From Frondihabitans australicus (GTDB lineage Bacteria > Actinomycetota > Actinomycetes > Actinomycetales > Microbacteriaceae), in contig NZ_RBKS01000001.1 of assembly GCF_003634555.1 (NCBI RefSeq), positions 1,488,001 to 1,552,000 of the forward strand: a DNA stretch of 64,000 bases, in the 5' to 3' direction. The position numbers and the translations under genes are program-made. The stretch's first letter is position 1; each line of letters begins with the position of its first letter. Shown piece after piece: positions 24,076 to 57,722 of the stretch. Under the pieces are notes generated by a model. The model ran no database searches. It saw nothing but the letters and a program-made list of their open reading frames with translations, and was not told the DNA's origin.

Positions 24076-25227
24076 TCACTTCAGGAAGTCGGGGACGTCG
24101 AGGTCGTCGTCGCCGTCGTCGAACACCGGGTCGGGGCTCGGCGCCTGGTTCTCGTCGGGGCGCTGGTAGGACGGCACGGCGCCGGAGTCGGCGATCGCGC
24201 TCACGCCGCCGACCGTCGTGGTGGCCGGGCCTTCGCTCTCGACGAAGCTCTGGCGGCGCCCCTCCGACTTGGTCGACGGCTCACCGCCGTCGAAGCCCGC
24301 GGCGATGACGGTGACGCGCACCTCGTCGCCGAGGGTGTCGTCGATGACCGCGCCGAAGATGATGTTGGCCTCGGGATGCACGGCCTCCTGAACGAGGCGG
24401 GCCGCGTCGTTGATCTCGAAGATGCCGAGGTTCGAGCCGCCCTGGATCGAGAGGAGCACGCCGTGGGCGCCGTCGATGGACGCCTCGAGGAGGGGCGACG
24501 CGACGGCCAGCTCGGCGGCCTTGATGGCGCGGTCGGCGCCGCGGGAGGAGCCGATGCCCATGAGAGCGGATCCGGCCCCCTGCATCACGCTCTTGACGTC
24601 GGCGAAGTCGAGGTTGATGAGGCCCGGGGTCGTGATGAGGTCGGTGATGCCCTGGACACCGGCGAGGAGCACCTGGTCGGCGGTCTGGAAGGCCTCGACC
24701 ATCGAGATGCCGCGCTCGGAGATCTCGAGGAGGCGGTCGTTCGGCACCACGATGAGGGTGTCGACCTCTTCCTTCAGCGACGCGACGCCGGCCTCGGCCT
24801 GCGCCTGACGGCGTCGACCCTCGAAGCCGAACGGCTTGGTCACGACGCCGATGGTGAGGGCGCCGATCGACTTCGCGATCCTGGCCACCACGGGAGCGCC
24901 GCCGGTGCCGGTGCCGCCGCCCTCGCCCGCCGTGACGAAGACCATGTCGGCCCCGGCCAGAGCCTCCTCGATCTCCTCGGCGTGGTCCTCCGCCGCGCGA
25001 CGGCCGACCTCGGGGTCGGCGCCGGCGCCGAGGCCGCGGGTGAGCTCGCGGCCGACGTCGAGCTTGACGTCGGCGTCGCTGAGCAGCAGCGCCTGGGCGT
25101 CGGTGTTGATCGCGATGAACTCGACTCCGCGGAGTCCGAGCTCGATCATGCGGTTGACGGCGTTGACGCCGCCGCCGCCGACGCCGACGACCTTGATCAC
25201 AGCAAGGTAATTGTGGTTCGTGGTCAC
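24076..25227 (-). CDS. ftsZ: Cell division protein FtsZ
   Basis: Tubulin-like GTPase of the Z ring (383 aa). The signature [13 protein letters not shown] and the T7-loop region [11 protein letters not shown] are intact. After a variable linker the protein ends in DLDVPDFLK, the C-terminal tail that binds SepF in Actinobacteria. The start is a GTG at 25227 with GGAGG 6-7 nt upstream. The 196-bp gap to ftsQ is the largest interruption in this part of the cluster and contains a 23-bp palindrome, so ftsZ has its own regulated promoter. Confidence 0.98.
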
Positions 25228-25284
25228 GTCCGGCCTCCGCGTGAGATTGCTTGAAAATCTGAGAACACACCGCGGCGCAAAACC

Positions 25285-25307
25285 CTAAAGTTCAAGTTGA
25301 GACTTAG
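25285..25307 (-). promoter_or_regulatory. Palindromic operator-like site upstream of ftsZ
   Basis: The dyad has the form CTAA-N3-TCAA-N-TTGA-N3-TTAG and lies 58-80 bp upstream of the ftsZ start. On the minus strand its first half reads CTAAGTCTCAA, which is repeated exactly upstream of the merR gene at 56252. A MerR-type activator of ftsZ (FtsR) is known in Corynebacterium and its likely orthologue is encoded at 56420-57118, so this is a candidate FtsR or second-MerR site. Confidence 0.55.
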
Positions 25308-25423
25308 TGTTATGCCGAGTATGCATGTCGTGCAGTCACAAGGTATGTGCCAGCGTGACCCGCCCCGGACCGACTTGCCCGCGTGTCGCGAAACCGTGCG
25401 GGGATTCGCATCGTTCCCGTCGA

Positions 25424-26500
25424 CTACTTGGTGCGGATGATGCCGTTGTCGGGCGCCGACACGTCGTACTCGACCGGCTGACTCGGGTTCGTGGCCTTGT
25501 GGCTCTTGATCAGGCCCGTGAGCAGCGCAGCCTTCTGCGTGGACGAGTCGGCGCTCCCCCACACGACCTGCTCGCCCGTCTTGAGGTTGAGGGTCACGTC
25601 GTCCGCCGTCGACGCGGTGACCTTCGTGACCGACGCGCGCAGCGTGGCGGGAAGCGAGAGCAGCACCTCGGCGGCGGCGCGGTAGACGCTGCCCGAGATC
25701 GTCGCGCCCTTGATGTCGACGACCGGGTAGCCGGCGGGCTGCTTCGGCGACGTCTGGATCACGATGCCGGCCGGGTCGACCAGCTCGTAGCCCGACGAGA
25801 TCTTCACCGAGGCGATCGGCTGCCGCTCGGTGATCTTGATGACGAGGGTGTGCGGCGGTTCGGTCTCGGTGACGTACGACTCGATCAGCGGGAAGTCCGA
25901 GAGGTCGCTCTTCACCTGCGTGAAGTCGACCATCGCGAGGGGCTTGCCGATCTGATCGTGAAGCGAGTCGAGCACGGCGGCCTTCGAGACGCGGCTCGTG
26001 CCCTCGACCTTGATCGTCTGCAGCGACAGCAGCGGCGAGAAGACGCTGATCGTCACGGAGCCGACCAGCACCACCACGACGACGCCGGCGGCGATCCAGC
26101 CGGCCCTCCGGTGGCGACTGCGCCGGGTGAACCGTCGCACCTCGCTCCGCTCGACGGCTCGGCGGGCGCTGGCGGCGCGGCGGGCCAGGCGACGGGCCGC
26201 GCTCGCACGCGTGCGGGCCTCCGAGGCTCCGGTGTCGACGGGATCGATGCGCGCAGGATCGGCGACGGCCTCGTCGACCGGGGTCTTCTCCGCGCCGCCC
26301 CGCTCCTTCGTGGCCGTCCCCGACGCCGCACGCGCCACGGCGGCCTTCGCGGCCCCCAGGGACGGGCGGACGCCGCGGGTCGTCGGCGACTTCTCGCTCG
26401 TCGACTCGTCGACGGGCGCCTCAGCCGTCTCGTCGACCACGGGCTCCTCGGCCCGGGGACGCGGCGGCGGGACCCTGTCGAACCCCTCTGGTCGCTTCAC
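25424..26500 (-). CDS. ftsQ: Cell division protein FtsQ (DivIB)
   Basis: Bitopic division protein (358 aa). A long, basic and acidic low-complexity N-terminal region (about 115 residues, rich in Ala, Arg, Glu and Thr) precedes one membrane helix (about 123-143), a POTRA domain beginning LQTIKVEGTSRVSKAAV, and the FtsQ beta domain. The start is a GTG at 26500, 8 bp after the murC stop. The N-terminal region is longer than in rod-shaped models, as is common in Actinobacteria. Confidence 0.92.
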   Translation of the reverse strand: MKRPEGFDRVPPPRPRAEEPVVDETAEAPVDESTSEKSPTTRGVRPSLGAAKAAVARAASGTATKERGGAEKTPVDEAVADPARIDPVDTGASEARTRASAARRLARRAASARRAVERSEVRRFTRRSRHRRAGWIAAGVVVVVLVGSVTISVFSPLLSLQTIKVEGTSRVSKAAVLDSLHDQIGKPLAMVDFTQVKSDLSDFPLIESYVTETEPPHTLVIKITERQPIASVKISSGYELVDPAGIVIQTSPKQPAGYPVVDIKGATISGSVYRAAAEVLLSLPATLRASVTKVTASTADDVTLNLKTGEQVVWGSADSSTQKAALLTGLIKSHKATNPSQPVEYDVSAPDNGIIRTK

Positions 26501-26508
26501 GCGCCCGC

Positions 26509-27936
26509 CTAGTCGCCCGCCGGGGCGGGCTCGGTCTCGGCCTGCGGGGTGCGTTCGAGGCTGCCGAGCAGCTGCGGCACGATGCGGTACACGTCGCCGC
26601 AGCCGAGCGTGATGACGAAGTCGCCGTCGCGGGCGATCTCGGCGACGCGGTCGGCGGCCTGCTGCCAGTCGGGCACGTAGTCGACCCTCGACGGGTCGTC
26701 GAAGCGCTCAGAGACCAGCGCGCCGGTGACGCCGGGCACGGGGTCCTCGCGGGCGCCGTAAACGTCGAGCACGACGGTGTGATCGGCGAGCGTCTCGTAC
26801 GCGGCGGCGAACTCCCCCGCCATCATCTGCGTGCGGCTGTAGAGGTGCGGCTGGTGGACGGCGATGAGCCGGCCGTCGCCGACGACGGTGCGGGCCGCCT
26901 GGAGCGCGGCCTGGACCTCGGTCGGGTGGTGCGCGTAGTCGTCGTAGACGCTGACGCCGCGGACCGTGCCGTGCAGCTCGAAGCGGCGCTGCGTCCCGCC
27001 GAAGACCTCGAGGCCCGAGATCGCCTCCTCGGGGGTGAGGCCGAGCCCGGTGAGCACCGCGTAGGCGCCCGCGGCGTTGAGGGCGTTGTGCGTGCCGGGC
27101 ACGGCGAGCTGCACTCGCCGGTCGACGCCGGCGTGCGACAGGGTGAAGGCGACGGGGCCGGACGTGGTGACCTCCGACACGCGGACAGTCGCATCCTGGG
27201 CCAGACCGAAGGTGACCACCCGCGAGGCGTCGAGCGACGCGGTGACCGCGACGGCGCCGGGGTCGTCGCTGGAGATCACGACGAACTCGCGAGCGCGGGA
27301 GGCGAAGGTGACGAAGGCCTCGTCGAACGCCTCGCGCGAGCCGTAGTGGTCGAGGTGGTCGGCGTCGACGTTCGTGATCAGGGCGATCGAGGTGTCGTAG
27401 AGGAGGAAGGAGCCGTCGGACTCGTCGGCCTCGATGACGAACAGGTCGTCACCGCCGCCCTTGGCGCTCACGCCGAGCGACTGGATGACGCCGCCGTTGA
27501 CGAAGTTGGGGTCGCGGTCGGCCTCGAGGAGGGCGGTGATGATCATGCCGGTCGAGGTGGTCTTGCCGTGCGCGCCGGCGACCGAGACGAGGCGGTGCGA
27601 GCCGATCAGCCAGGCGAGGGCCTGCGACCGGTGCAGCACCGGCAGGCCCATCTCGAGGGCGAGCTGGTACTCGGGGTTGTCCTGCCAGAGGGCGCCCGTC
27701 ACGACCAGGGTGTCGGCGTCGCCGACGTTCGCGGCGTCGTGGCCGATCGTGATCGTGGCGCCGAGTCCGCGCAGGGCGTCGATGTTCGACGACTCGCGGA
27801 CGTCCGAGCCCGTGACCGTGTAGCCGCTGGCGAGGAAGACGCGGGCGATGCCGCTCATGCCGGATCCGCCGATGCCGACGAAGTGGAGCTTGCCGAGGTT
27901 CTCGGGCAGGGCCTTGGTGAGGTCGGGCTTGATCAT
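26509..27936 (-). CDS. murC: UDP-N-acetylmuramate-L-alanine ligase
   Basis: MurC adds the first residue of the peptide stem. The protein (475 aa) has the N-terminal Rossmann motif [12 protein letters not shown], the ATP-binding [11 protein letters not shown] and the conserved EADESDGSF. The ATG at 27936 overlaps the murG stop by 4 bp. Downstream is ftsQ. Confidence 0.96.
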
Positions 27937-51159: not shown

Positions 51160-54100
51160 CTACGACACCACGACGAGCAGATCGCCGGCGTCGACCTGTT
51201 GCGTCGACGGGATCGCCAGACGCCCGACGGTGCCCGCGACCGGGGTCGTGATCGCCGCCTCCATCTTCATCGCCTCGATCGTCGCCACCGCGTCGCCCGC
51301 CGCGACCCGATCTCCGACGGCGACCTTGACCGTCACGACACCCGAGAACGGCGCGGCGATCTCGCCGGGCACGGTGCGGTCGGCCTTCTCGGCGGACTTC
51401 TGCGCGACGTCGATCGACCGGTCGCGCACGAACACCGGGCGCAGCTGCCCGTTGATCGTCGTCATGACGGTGCGCACGCCCTTCTCGTCGGCCTCGCCGA
51501 TCGCCTCGAGCGCGATGTAGAGCGTCACGCCGCGCGCCACAGGCACCGCGTGCTCGACCCCGGGCACGAGCCCGTAGAGGTAGTCGGGTGTCGACACGAC
51601 CGAGAGGTCGCCGTAGGTGTCGAGCACCTGCTGGTACTGCTGCGTCGGCCCCGCGAAGAGCAGGCGGTTCAGCAGCTCTTGGCGCTCCCGACCCGGCACG
51701 GTGAGGCCGTCCTGGTCGGCAGGATCCAGGGGCTCGACGCCGATCTTGACCGTCCGGCCCTCGAGCACCTTCGACCGGAACGGCTCGGGCCAGCCACCCG
51801 GCAGGTCGCCCAACTCGCCGGCCATGAAGCCGATGACGCTGTCGGGGATGTCGAATCGGCCGGGATCCTGCTCGAACTCGGCCGGGTCGGCGTCCGTCGC
51901 CGCGAGCTGCAGGGCGAGGTCGCCCACCACCTTCGACGACGGGGTGACCTTCGGCGGGCGGCCGAGGATCCGGTTCGCGGCCGCGTACCAGTCCTCCACC
52001 TTCTCGAACTGGTCTCCGAGCCCCAGCGCGATGGCCTGCTGGCGGAGATTCGACAGCTGGCCGCCGGGGATCTCGTGCTTGTAGACGCGCCCGGTCGGCC
52101 CCGGGAGGCCCGATTCGAACGGCTTGTAGACGCGGCGTACGGCCTCCCAGTACGGCTCGAGGTCGCTCACCGCCTGCAGCGACAGGCCGGTGTCGCGCTC
52201 GGTGTGCGCGAGGGCGGCGACGAGGGCCGATGCCGAGGGCTGCGACGTCGTGCCGGCCATCGGGGCGCTGGCGACGTCGACCGCGTCGGCTCCTGCCCGG
52301 CTCGCCGCGAGCAGCGTGGCGAGTTGGCCGCCGGCGGTGTCGTGCGTGTGCACGTGCACCGGCAGGTCGAAGCGGTCGCGCAGGGCCGTGACGAGCTTCT
52401 CGGCGGCCCCGGCGCGCAGGAGCCCGGCCATGTCCTTGATGCCGATGACGTGCGCGCCCGCCTCGACGATCTGCTCCGCAAGCTTCAGGTAGTAGTCGAG
52501 GGTGTAGAGGTCTTCGGCCGGGTCGAGCAGGTCGGCGGTGTAGCAGAGCGCCACCTCGGCGACGGTCGTGCCGGTCGCGAGGACCGCGTCGATGGCCGGG
52601 CGCATCTGCGAGACGTCGTTGAGCGCGTCGAAGATGCGGAAGATGTCGACGCCGGTCGCCGCGGCCTCCTGCACGAAGGCCTCGGTCACCTCGGTCGGGT
52701 ACGGCGTGTAGCCGACGGTGTTGCGACCGCGCAGCAGCATCTGGATCGCCACGTTCGGCATGGCCTCGCGCAGGCTCGCGAGGCGGTGCCACGGGTCTTC
52801 GCCGAGGAATCGCAGGGCCACGTCGTAGGTGGCGCCGCCCCAGGCCTCCATGCTGAGCAGCTCGGGCGTCATCCTGCTCACGTAGGGGGCAACGGCGAGC
52901 AGGTCTTTCGAGCGCACGCGCGTGGCCAGGAGAGACTGGTGCGCGTCGCGCATCGTGGTCTCGGTGACGGCGAGGGCCGTCTGCGCCCTCAGAGCCTCGG
53001 CGAAGCCCTTCGGGCCCAGTTCGAGCAGGCGCTGGCGCGATCCGGGCGCAGGAGCAGCCGACAGGTCGATCGCGGGCAGTTTCGACGCGGGGTCGATCGC
53101 GCCCTCCCCCGCCCCGTGAGGCTTGTTCACCGTGACATCGGCGAGCCAGCGGAGGATCTTCGTGCCGCGGTCGCGCGACGCGTGGCTCTCGAAGAGCTGC
53201 GGGCGCTCCTCGATGAACGACGTCGAGAGGTCGCCGGCGGCGAACGACGGGTCGTCGAGCACGGCCTGGAGGAACGGGATGTTCGTCGAGACGCCGCGGA
53301 TGCGGAACTCGGCGAGCCCGCGCTTGGCCCGGGTCACGGCCGCCGGGAAGTCGCGGCCGCGCGCCGTCATCTTCGCCAGCATCGAGTCGAAGTGCGGGCT
53401 GATCTGCGCGCCCGGCTCGATGGTGCCGCCGTCGAGGCGGATGCCCGCGCCGCCCGGAGAGCGGTAGGTCGTGATGCGGCCGGTGTCGGGACGGAAGCCG
53501 GCGTTCGGGTCCTCCGTGGTGATGCGGCACTGCAGCGCCGCGCCGCGGAGGCGGATCTCGGGCTGCGTGAGGCCCAGTTCGGCGAGGGTCGCGCCCGCGG
53601 CGATGCGCATCTGCGAGAGGACGAGGTCGACGTCGGTCACCTCCTCGGTGACCGTGTGCTCGACCTGGATGCGCGGGTTCATCTCGATGAAGACGTGCTC
53701 GCCGCGCCGCTCGCCCGCGGTGTCGAGGAGGAACTCGACGGTGCCGGCGTTGACGTAGCCGATCGAGCGGGCGAACGCGATGGCGTCGCGGTACATCGCC
53801 TGGCGGGTGGCGTCGTCGAGGTTGGGCGCCGGAGCGATCTCGACGACCTTCTGGTGCCGGCGCTGCACCGAGCAGTCGCGCTCGAACAGGTGCACGGTCT
53901 CGCCGGTCGCATCGGCGAGCACCTGCACCTCGATGTGCCGGGGGCGGACCACCGCCTGCTCGATGAACATCGTCGGGTCGCCGAAGGCGCTGTCGGCCTC
54001 GCGCATCGCGGCCTCGAGCGCCGGGCGGAGCTCCGCCGCGGTCTCGACGCGACGCATGCCGCGGCCACCGCCGCCTGCGACGGCTTTCGCGAAGACGGGG

Positions 54101-55588: not shown

Positions 55589-56185
55589 CTACGAGGCGCG
55601 AGAGGAGCGGCGGGCGGCTAGCTCGTCGCGAGGGTCGGCCGCAGGAGTGGCGTCGAGCTCGACGAGGCTCGACTCGACCTCGCGCAGCACCTTGCCCACG
55701 GCGATGCCGAAGACGCCCTGACCGCGTGAGACGAGGTCGATGACCTCGTCGTTGGAGGTGCAGAGGTAGACGGAGGCGCCGTCGCTCATGAGCGTCGTCT
55801 GGGCGAGGTCGTTCACGCCCGACTCGCGGAGCTGGTTGACGGCCGTGCGGATCTGCTGGAGCGAGATGCCGGTGTCGAGGAGGCGCTTCACGAGTTTCAG
55901 CACGAGGATGTCGCGGAAGCCGTAGAGACGCTGCGTGCCGGAGCCCGACGCACCGCGGACGGTGGGCTCGACGAGGCCGGTGCGGGCCCAGTAGTCGAGC
56001 TGGCGGTAGCTGATGCCGGCCGCGCGAGCGGCGGCGGTGCCGCGGTAGCCGTGGTCTTCCTCGAGCTCGACCATGCCGTCGGTGAAGAGGACGTCGGCGC
56101 CGTACTCGGAGACGGGCGTCGGCACGGCGTCACGTGTCGTCGGGCCGTCGATGCGGGACCCCTCGGGGGTGCCTGAGTCGTTCAT
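55589..56185 (-). CDS. MerR family regulator (Rv1830/ResR-like)
   Basis: A 198-aa MerR-type regulator with the winged helix at about residues 37-105 (YRGTAAARAAGISYRQLDYW) and a C-terminal region including LFGIAVGKV-like GVFGIAVGKVLREVE. It resembles the second MerR gene of the mycobacterial garA locus (Rv1830, reported to control growth and division genes). The ATG at 56185 follows GGAAGG; a longer frame is not needed. Its leader carries an operator-like dyad that shares 11 exact bases with the ftsZ upstream site. Confidence 0.87.
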   Translation of the reverse strand: MNDSGTPEGSRIDGPTTRDAVPTPVSEYGADVLFTDGMVELEEDHGYRGTAAARAAGISYRQLDYWARTGLVEPTVRGASGSGTQRLYGFRDILVLKLVKRLLDTGISLQQIRTAVNQLRESGVNDLAQTTLMSDGASVYLCTSNDEVIDLVSRGQGVFGIAVGKVLREVESSLVELDATPAADPRDELAARRSSRAS

Positions 56186-56251: not shown

Positions 56252-56280
56252 CTAAGTCTCAAGAAGAGGTTGAGTGTTGT
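56252..56280 (-). promoter_or_regulatory. Operator-like dyad upstream of merR
   Basis: CTAAGTCTCAA and TTGAGTGTTG face each other across 7 nt, 67-95 bp before the merR start. The first half is identical to the minus-strand half-site upstream of ftsZ (25285-25307), there with a 1-nt spacer. Confidence 0.5.
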
Positions 56281-56419
56281 ACCGAGGTCAACGGTACCCA
56301 ACACGGGCGGGCCGACGAGCGACATTCGACTTTCTCGTGCGGCGTGTCGAGACGACGGCCGAACCCTGCCCCGAGTCTAAGCCGTGCGAGCGCCTCGCAC
56401 GAGAGCGCGGGCGACCTCG

Positions 56420-57118
56420 TCAGCCGTCGATGCGCCCGAGCGCCGAGCGGATCAGGCCGCCGCGGACCGTCTCGAGGTGCGAGGCGATCTCGCGCGCGAG
56501 CTCGGCGGCGCGGGCGCGCCCGGCCGAGTCGCGGCGCCGGACGGCCGGAGCCACGGCGTTCTCGATGAGGCCCAGCTCGCGTTCGGCCGCGGCGCGGAGG
56601 GCTCGGAGATGACGCGGTTCGATGCCGGATTTCTTCAGCTCGACGAGGGCCTGCAGCATCCTGTGTGCCTCATCGCCGTAGTGCTCGGCGGCGGGCACGA
56701 GGGAGGAGCCGATGGCGTCGTCGAGCAGGGCCGGGGTCGCACCGGTCTCGCTGAGGAGCTCGTCGCGGCTGTACCGCCGACCGCCGGTGAGCATCGACGC
56801 CGGCGCGGCGTTGGCCGGCAGGGAGAGCGGACGGCCGGCGTCGAGATCGTCGAGGTGGCCGCGGATCACCTTGAGCGGCAGGTAGTGGTCGCGCTGGAGG
56901 CCGAGGATGAAGCGGAGTCGCTCGACGTCGGCGGGCGAGAACTTGCGGTAGCCCGACTCGGTGCGCACCGGCGTGACCAGCTGGCGCTCTTCGAGGAACC
57001 GGAGCTTCGAGTTCGACAGGTCGGGGAACTCGGGCTTGAGACGGGCGAGGACCTGCCCGATGGTCAACAGATCGGATGCACCCGGCGCCTGATCGGCCCG
57101 GGCGAGAGCGCGCGGCAC
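56420..57118 (-). CDS. ftsR: MerR-type regulator FtsR
   Basis: A 232-aa MerR-like protein of the FtsR/Rv1828 group, next to garA. The DNA-binding domain (about residues 18-90) includes LTIGQVLARLKPEFPDLSNS and YRKFSPADVERLRFI, and the C-terminal half is helical. In Corynebacterium glutamicum FtsR activates ftsZ. The GTG at 57118 shares one base with the garA stop (TAGTG), so translation is coupled. The Rv1829-type gene that lies between the two MerR genes in mycobacteria is absent; the 234-bp gap contains only the dyad. Confidence 0.88.
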   Translation of the reverse strand: MPRALARADQAPGASDLLTIGQVLARLKPEFPDLSNSKLRFLEERQLVTPVRTESGYRKFSPADVERLRFILGLQRDHYLPLKVIRGHLDDLDAGRPLSLPANAAPASMLTGGRRYSRDELLSETGATPALLDDAIGSSLVPAAEHYGDEAHRMLQALVELKKSGIEPRHLRALRAAAERELGLIENAVAPAVRRRDSAGRARAAELAREIASHLETVRGGLIRSALGRIDG

Positions 57119-57594
57119 TACTTGATCGCCAGGTTGGCGAGGTCGACCCGCGATGCGTAGAAGGTGAGGCGGAACTTGCCGACCTGCACCTCGGCGCCGT
57201 CCGAGAGGAGGGCCTCGTCGATGCGAACGCCGTCGAAGTAGGTGCCGTTGAGCGAGCCGAGGTCTTTGACGCTGAAGGACGTGCCGTGACGACGGAACTC
57301 GGCGTGCTTGCGGCTCACCGTCACGTCGTCGAGGAAGATGCCGGCGTCGGGGTGGCGGCCGGCCACGGTGACGTCGGCATCGAGGAGGAAGCGGGCGCCG
57401 ATGTTCGGACCACGGCGGACCACGAGGAGGGCGGAGCCGCTGGGCAGCGCGGAGACGGCCTCGCGCTCGTCGTTCGACACACCGCCCTCGAGAGCGGCGA
57501 GCTGGGCCTGGAACTCCTCGTTGAAGCTGAGGGTCGTGTCGACCTCGCGGCGCTGGTCTTCCGCGCCGTTCGATGGGGTGGCTGGCTCTGCCAT
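57118..57594 (-). CDS. garA: FHA-domain metabolic regulator GarA/OdhI
   Basis: GarA inhibits 2-oxoglutarate dehydrogenase and glutamate dehydrogenase when unphosphorylated; PASTA-type kinases phosphorylate its N-terminal threonines. The 158-aa protein has the Thr-Thr motif in VDTTLSFNEEF (about 24-34) and an FHA domain (about 68-150) with GRHPDAGIFLDDVTVSRKHAEF and NGTYFDG. The ATG at 57594 has AGGAGGT 6 nt upstream. A PknL-like kinase in this window is a candidate kinase for it, but PknG or PknB elsewhere would be more usual. Confidence 0.92.
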   Translation of the reverse strand: MAEPATPSNGAEDQRREVDTTLSFNEEFQAQLAALEGGVSNDEREAVSALPSGSALLVVRRGPNIGARFLLDADVTVAGRHPDAGIFLDDVTVSRKHAEFRRHGTSFSVKDLGSLNGTYFDGVRIDEALLSDGAEVQVGKFRLTFYASRVDLANLAIK

Positions 57595-57638
57595 CGTGGA
57601 CCTCCTGTGGCCCCCAAGCGTAGCGGAATCGTTACGTG

Positions 57639-57722
57639 CCGGAATCACCGATTTGTGGAAAGTGGGTGTCACAAGCATGTGGCACTCGTCTACCAGCGTT
57701 ACCGACCGGAATCACCGATTTG
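57639..57722. repeat. 17-bp direct repeats in the garA-htrA intergenic region
   Basis: CCGGAATCACCGATTTG occurs at 57639-57655 and again at 57706-57722, 67 bp apart. They lie between the divergent garA and htrA genes and may be binding sites for a shared regulator. Confidence 0.7.

Follow-up and report, generated by a model that had tools for sequence, protein, structure and literature searches.

Two stretches of DNA in Frondihabitans australicus, one in the leader of the cell-division gene ftsZ and one upstream of a gene for a MerR-family regulator 31 kb away, carry nearly the same inverted repeat, which raises the question of which protein reads both. We analyzed this in a window of 64,000 nucleotides (nt) of the host genome of 4,036,723 bases, and coordinates are positions in this window unless a locus is named. 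A preliminary description of the window had proposed an operator shared by ftsZ and the merR gene, with both MerR proteins encoded there as its readers. We consider it highly probable that both sites are operators of one of the two, FtsR, whose gene lies in the window; this prediction rests on comparative sequence analysis. An FtsR dimer would bind a pair of 9-bp half-sites, AANYYTMAA and its reverse complement, separated by 7 bp. The first operator would control ftsZ, as in Corynebacterium glutamicum, and the second would provide resR, which directly follows ftsR, with a separate promoter dependent on FtsR. The sites and genes concerned are as follows.

25281..25305, minus strand: predicted FtsR box of ftsZ, AAGTCTCAA-CTTGAAC-TTTAGGGTT when read in the direction of ftsZ; the ftsZ start codon follows after 53 nt.
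25285..25307, no strand assigned: dyad of the preliminary description, in a 9-1-9 register that overlaps the FtsR box and shares one half-site with it; a conserved second register at ftsZ sites.
56254..56278, minus strand: predicted FtsR box of the resR-like gene, AACACTCAA-CCTCTTC-TTGAGACTT when read in the direction of the gene; the ATG follows after 68 nt.
24076..25227, minus strand: ftsZ, with a GTG start at 25227 (TIGR00065, 409.8 bits).
55589..56185, minus strand: gene for a ResR/McdR-like MerR regulator, here called resR (PF13411, 58.9 bits; of cg1633/Rv1830 type by gene order).
56420..57118, minus strand: ftsR (247.5 bits to NF050798, transcriptional regulator FtsR, cut-off 150).

The two boxes share one architecture, a 25-bp dyad of two 9-bp half-sites set 7 bp apart (9-7-9). 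Read on the forward strand, the ftsZ box is AACCCTAAA-GTTCAAG-TTGAGACTT (25281-25305; whole site AACCCTAAAGTTCAAGTTGAGACTT) and the resR box is AAGTCTCAA-GAAGAGG-TTGAGTGTT (56254-56278; whole site AAGTCTCAAGAAGAGGTTGAGTGTT). The FtsR site at C. glutamicum ftsZ that was tested by electrophoretic mobility shift assay, AACCCTAAAGTAAAGGTTGAGGGTA, is a 25-bp imperfect inverted repeat (PMC6683498; this and the other cited papers are represented here by excerpts), and the ftsZ box equals it at 19 of 25 positions by manual count. Sites were scored with a weight matrix trained on the ftsZ promoters of 36 genomes with FtsR over the curated cut-off, and a box was called at a score of ≥10. The ftsZ box, which belongs to the training set, has the top score in the window (37.9), and the resR box scores 24.2 with this matrix trained on ftsZ sites alone.

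The preliminary description had read the ftsZ site as CTAA-N3-TCAA-N-TTGA-N3-TTAG. This dyad is present at 25285-25307 with zero mismatches, a match that follows by construction from a pattern derived from the site itself; at up to three mismatches, 100 shuffles gave no match. The recurrence of its half-site is likewise exact: CTAAGTCTCAA occurs at 25297-25307 (minus strand) and at 56252-56262 (plus strand), against 0.10 matches expected at one mismatch, and at the merR site 7 nt separate it from the opposing TTGAGTGTTG, in agreement with the preliminary description. The register differs. Both window sites and the published C. glutamicum site have the 9-7-9 register in common, and the 9-1-9 register of the preliminary description lies 3 bp off. 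Among 36 ftsZ sites, the mean complementarity is 0.639 for 9-7-9, 0.619 for 9-1-9 and 0.14-0.42 for other registers; at resR (92 boxes) it is 0.586 for 9-7-9 versus 0.43 and 0.41, and we note that the way in which sites were selected favors the 9-7-9 values. We rejected 9-1-9 as the sole register, as both registers are conserved at ftsZ and 9-7-9 leads at resR. Because the two registers are about equally palindromic at ftsZ, that site appears to consist of a single left half-site with two right half-sites offset by 6 bp.

The pair is nearly unique in the genome. With up to three mismatches, the 23-bp dyad pattern matches the whole genome only at 25285-25307 and at the merR site (56252-56274); its backwards control matches once. 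The pattern AANNCTMAA-N7-TTKAGNNTT, built after inspecting the ftsZ, resR and C. glutamicum sites, occurs in two places in the 4.04-Mb genome, the ftsZ and resR boxes, and its backwards control is absent across 40 genomes. The six sister genomes of the genus provide a fair test, and in them a looser exact 9-7-9 pattern found 11 places, comprising four at ftsZ, six at resR and one elsewhere (control 0). For the 33 genomes outside the genus, it found 7 places versus 4 for the control; two are at ftsZ and two at whiB, leaving three unassigned (one of the two in G022 and those in G015 and G024). When one mismatch was allowed, the 9-7-9 pattern matched 20 places in the seven genus genomes, with ftsZ and resR both found in 7/7 and a backwards control of 0. 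The ftsZ leader of the window's genome is matched twice, once per register, and the other five places are the promoter of an M23-peptidase gene in four genomes and one further place. A site at L098 in G004 was set aside: it lies inside a long open frame that by eye resembles a histidine kinase, and is probably due to chance.

It is extremely improbable that the two boxes are a chance likeness between two AT-rich leader stretches. Good matrix scores do arise in coding sequence, and a single score is no proof: positions 52480-52504 score 22.6 within a pyruvate carboxylase-like coding frame, most likely by chance, which gives a gauge of the matrix background. Against chance stand the uniqueness of the pair genome-wide, the box at resR in 7/7 genomes of the genus, the recurrence of the same two promoters across the class, and permuted controls near zero.

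Conservation at ftsZ extends well beyond the genus. In 40 genomes, the host's own and others of its genus, family and order, a consensus count at ftsZ identified two clear failures (G027 and G030) and three weak cases (G010, G017 and G020). Held-out ftsZ promoters from FtsR-bearing genomes score 17.7-34.8 in 11 of 12 cases. The preliminary description had named lack of conservation upstream of ftsZ in related genera as what would speak against it; the comparison was made, and the dyad is conserved.

The matrix held no resR sequence in training, and it detects the box at a score of ≥10 in 92 of 153 resR promoters (mean 0.6 for 30 column-permuted matrices). These comprise 28 of 48 FtsR-bearing genomes carried under handles (permuted mean 0.23, maximum 1), among them 7/7 genomes of the genus (scores 16.2-24.2), 49 of 79 named loci (permuted mean 0.27, maximum 2) and 15 of 26 loci in a sample of the class, with an ftsR match near each of the latter (permuted mean 0.13, maximum 1). 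At least two genomes (G014 and G029) are in both the handle and named sets, and the 153 promoters are not 153 independent species. The boxed named loci include Frigoribacterium (4/4), Curtobacterium (3/3), Arthrobacter (15/15), Nocardioides (5/5) and Cellulomonas (2/2). For the named set, 79 of 80 loci were scored, one being too short, and ftsR was detected as a neighbor in all of these but L211 and L218 (77/79). For the class sample, 43 of 45 genomes were matched; these gave 26 newly scored loci and 4 genomes already included, and 13 genomes (14 matches, two of them in G408) were left unscored. The remaining ~5 kb of each named locus reached a score of ≥10 in 8/79 cases, six of them before odhI.

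Both boxes are absent from lineages that lack FtsR. The FtsR model matched 280 of 346 genomes of the order and had no match in 66. The 20 of these 66 that were listed all belong to families f4 and f7, apart from the fragmented assembly G054, and neither family is represented among the FtsR matches listed for the order. We searched 18 new FtsR-lacking genomes, 17 of which have ftsZ; with G027 and G030 this gave 19 scored ftsZ promoters (G054 has no ftsZ match). None of the 19 has a box (scores -13.9 to 5.0), with G017 and G034 set aside. The difference from the held-out FtsR-bearing promoters (11/12 versus 0/19) has a Fisher p of 1.4e-7, a value not corrected for relatedness. At resR, 0 of 18 genomes with ResR and without FtsR have a box; their top score is -0.3 (permuted mean 0.13, maximum 3). 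ResR-like genes stay in the f4 and f7 members searched, except G074.

This pattern bears on whether the ResR-like protein reads both sites and so controls its own gene and ftsZ, which we judge quite improbable. Autoregulation is common among regulators whose own promoter contains a dyad. The mycobacterial counterpart McdR influences cell division (PMC9040748). The motif published for McdR, AATnACA-N4-TGTnATT (PMC9040748), is a different one. In the window it is found in five places, each with 2-3 mismatches and neither box among them; the closest match near either box (25195-25212, 2 mismatches) lies inside ftsZ. In the seven genus genomes, the motif at ≤1 mismatch occurs in 18 places (backwards control 2), and it precedes a whiB gene at least once in each genome, with two of the four places in G005 unassigned. 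Moreover, the 18 genomes that keep ResR and lack FtsR have the box in 0/18 cases at resR and 0/18 at ftsZ. Because the box is gone where FtsR was lost though ResR was kept, FtsR, not ResR, is likely the reader of both boxes. Of the preliminary proposal, the shared operator and FtsR as its binder are thus supported by conservation and joint loss; the part in which both MerR proteins read the box is not, given the published ResR motif and the ResR-keeping genomes without a box.

We also weighed whether the boxes are parts of a core promoter, or another factor's site, conserved independently of FtsR. Conserved blocks directly upstream of the box at both genes, with a transcription start likely close by, would fit this account. 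Against it, the distance from box to start codon varies (11 to 114 nt at ftsZ across FtsR-bearing genomes), the box is missing from FtsR-lacking lineages though ftsZ and resR stay, and it matches a site proven to bind FtsR in a distant genus. We give this account a very small probability.

Several observations weigh against FtsR as the common reader. The looser exact pattern found 20 places in all 40 genomes versus 4 for the backwards control. No resR box reaches a score of 10 in 20/48 handle genomes, 30/79 named loci and 11/26 class loci. Genera without a box include Leifsonia, Microbacterium and Subtercola, in which ftsR ends 58-114 nt before resR and resR may be read through from ftsR. A further 15 of the 92 resR boxes extend into the projected resR start, and 77 of 153 promoters remain without them; the start was projected from the window protein, which has a variable N-terminus, and some of the 15 may be chance matches in coding sequence. 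One FtsR-bearing genome, G045, has a resR box and no ftsZ box (-0.5). Two genomes without an ftsR over the cut-off, G017 (29.3) and G034 (17.8), keep the ftsZ box; because both assemblies are fragmented and resR was not found in them either, the ftsR locus was probably lost from the assemblies rather than from the genomes. The co-loss may represent as few as two events, as the FtsR-lacking genomes tested belong to f4 and f7 only. Finally, in the excerpted text of the C. glutamicum study (PMC6683498), none of the nine strongest FtsR peaks from chromatin affinity purification and sequencing is at cg1633.

The direction of control was considered from the promoter context, in which two flanking blocks are relevant.

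25309..25324, minus strand: conserved flank upstream of the ftsZ box, GCATACT-N2-GCATAAC here and GCATACTGAGCATAACT in many relatives, defined by column conservation over 23 family ftsZ promoters.
56286..56296, minus strand: TACCGTTGACC stretch just upstream of the resR box, in which TACCGT (56291-56296) is a -10-like hexamer (TANNGT).

The ftsZ flank is a tandem block, like GCATACT-N2-GCATAACT, conserved across most of the family directly upstream of the box; it may hold a -10 element, the promoter core or another factor's site. At resR, TANNGT stands at the same place in 14 of 14 sequences read by eye (7 from the genus, 4 from Frigoribacterium and 3 from Curtobacterium). Because this -10-like hexamer is upstream of the box, the box would lie just downstream of the transcription start, an arrangement that favors repression, and we put at about even the chance that FtsR lowers resR expression in this genus. 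Activation of resR by FtsR bound at the same box is almost as plausible. FtsR binds and activates ftsZ in C. glutamicum, where its site is centered at -73 from the transcription start (PMC6683498), and in the class sample 14 of 15 resR boxes precede the projected start codon by 30-201 nt, which leaves room for an activator. The hexamer conserved in 14/14 sequences of the genus and its neighbors fits repression better than activation, and FtsR is reported as the likely repressor of C. glutamicum cop1 through a site over the -10 region (PMC6683498).

The ftsZ promoters of the family differ from that of C. glutamicum. Of the 24 FtsR-bearing members of the window's family, 13 have 11-22 nt between the end of the box and the ftsZ start codon, and by eye an apparent ribosome-binding site fills this gap. 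Transcription of ftsZ in these genomes therefore probably begins inside the box or before it, and the direction of control would not be transferable from C. glutamicum. A WhiA-WhcD complex has also been reported to bind the ftsZ promoter (cited in PMC6683498). Classical MerR promoters resemble those described here in regulator family and dyad operator; their site lies in a 19-20 bp spacer between the -35 and -10 elements. We found conserved flanks at both promoters but no clear -35/-10 pair with such a spacing, and by eye many family ftsZ promoters apparently have no room for a -10 element between the box and the ribosome-binding site.

The assignment of the two regulators draws partly on their surroundings, for which three further genes are listed.

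57118..57678, minus strand: odhI/garA-like FHA gene, 5' of ftsR (165.1 bits to NF041660, whose cut-off is 200; 63 bits to PF00498); its true start may lie inside this frame.
25424-26500, minus strand: FtsQ-type gene (NF004039 below its cut-off, PF08478 above).
26509-27936, minus strand: murC.

The presence of FtsR, claimed in the preliminary description, is borne out by the NF050798 match, and FtsR residues 111-227 match the Rv1828 structure 5ydc (E 3.6e-13). The described distance of 31 kb between ftsZ and the merR gene also holds, with the refinement that the merR gene directly follows ftsR. The closest named relatives of the merR protein are from Microbacteriaceae (Frigoribacterium, 79-81%). 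We take the C. glutamicum gene cg1633 to be the equivalent of Rv1830. The gene order in C. glutamicum is cg1630 (odhI), cg1631 (ftsR), cg1632 (a nuclease gene) and cg1633 (MerR) (PMC6683498). A gene for a BFN-type nuclease (PF02577) stands between ftsR and the merR gene in the relative L060 and is absent from the window. Because its gene order matches the C. glutamicum cluster, we typed the window's merR gene as ResR/McdR; this provisional assignment was made from the MerR domain and cluster position, not from the Rv1830 or cg1633 sequence.

The published FtsR (Cg1631/Rv1828) operator at ftsZ agrees with that of the window in gene, regulator family and 25-bp 9-7-9 repeat, and its conservation at ftsZ across Actinobacteria has been reported (PMC6683498). 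Our result on ftsZ is thus already known; what is new is the prediction that this known regulator also targets resR, at a well-conserved site. Relative to the excerpted account in PMC6683498, the additions are the predicted resR operator, the loss of the operator where FtsR is missing, and the overlapping third half-site at ftsZ. Open-access papers on these regulators and on ftsZ promoters, screened by title, opening of the abstract and selected passages, contain no report of resR being under FtsR control. ResR/McdR (Rv1830) is a regulator of cell division and drug resilience in mycobacteria and part of a McdR-WhiB2 loop (PMC9040748, PMC10336103); the window resembles this system in having a MerR gene downstream of ftsR, and the genus in having the known motif at a whiB promoter. 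In mycobacteria, whiB2 is repressed by McdR, and WhiB2 in turn acts on mcdR through cGACACGc, the input known for this gene; the PMC9040748 passages contain no mention of Rv1828, MSMEG_3642 or FtsR. A conserved FtsR operator at resR would join two actinobacterial division regulators. The authors of the FtsR study, who found no ligand, inferred that a further FtsR-dependent gene besides ftsZ underlies the deletion phenotype (PMC6683498), and resR would be a candidate for this missing target if the predicted operator is true.

FtsR may also reach beyond these two genes. The whiB promoters are located as follows.

L275 (own genome, G000:C1:377600-379600): whiB promoter.
L006 and L087, near 1501-1525: whiB promoters.

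In G019 and G010, two sites found via their FtsR boxes (28.3 and 31.2) are followed by WhiB-family genes, confirmed in G019 by a Pfam WhiB match; 25 nt past the box each has the ResR motif, exact in G019 and with one mismatch in G010. Sites found via the ResR motif in 7/7 genus genomes have a degenerate FtsR-like box 27 nt upstream, with scores of 5.7-8.3 (below 10). All 9 genomes examined thus have a whiB promoter in which an FtsR-like box precedes a ResR/McdR motif (0-1 mismatch) by 25-27 nt; only one partner of each pair was used in finding the site, and the genus sites are orthologous, not independent. From this we tentatively suggest, at somewhat less than an even chance, that FtsR heads a small division regulon across the Actinomycetes, comprising ftsZ, resR and, in some lineages, ResR-targeted whiB, in a feed-forward circuit. 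If true, two adjacent MerR regulators would jointly set the supply of FtsZ and of a WhiB division regulator.

A cell-wall M23-peptidase gene may be a further FtsR target in this genus. An FtsR-like site scoring 20.0-20.8 lies ~140 nt upstream of this gene in 4/7 genus genomes (G002, G003, G005 and G006).

L244:1501-1525: M23-promoter site.
L246:1501-1525: M23-promoter site.
L248:1501-1525: M23-promoter site.
L284:1508-1532: M23-promoter site.

The site is nearly invariant and identical in three genomes; in L244, the one locus scanned for them, tRNA genes are found upstream. Pattern search found no such site in G000, G001 and G004, in which the M23 gene itself was not sought.

The preliminary description had included the regulators' own expression in the regulon, and this stood for resR only. 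Autoregulation of odhI-ftsR was rejected for this genome, as the best matrix score upstream of odhI is -5.0. Elsewhere, 6 of 76 named loci have a box (scores 13-21) 126-197 nt upstream of the conserved part of odhI, five of them in Nocardioidaceae (L214, L222, L227, L239 and L241) and one in Motilibacter (L240), and FtsR may control its own operon in those six.
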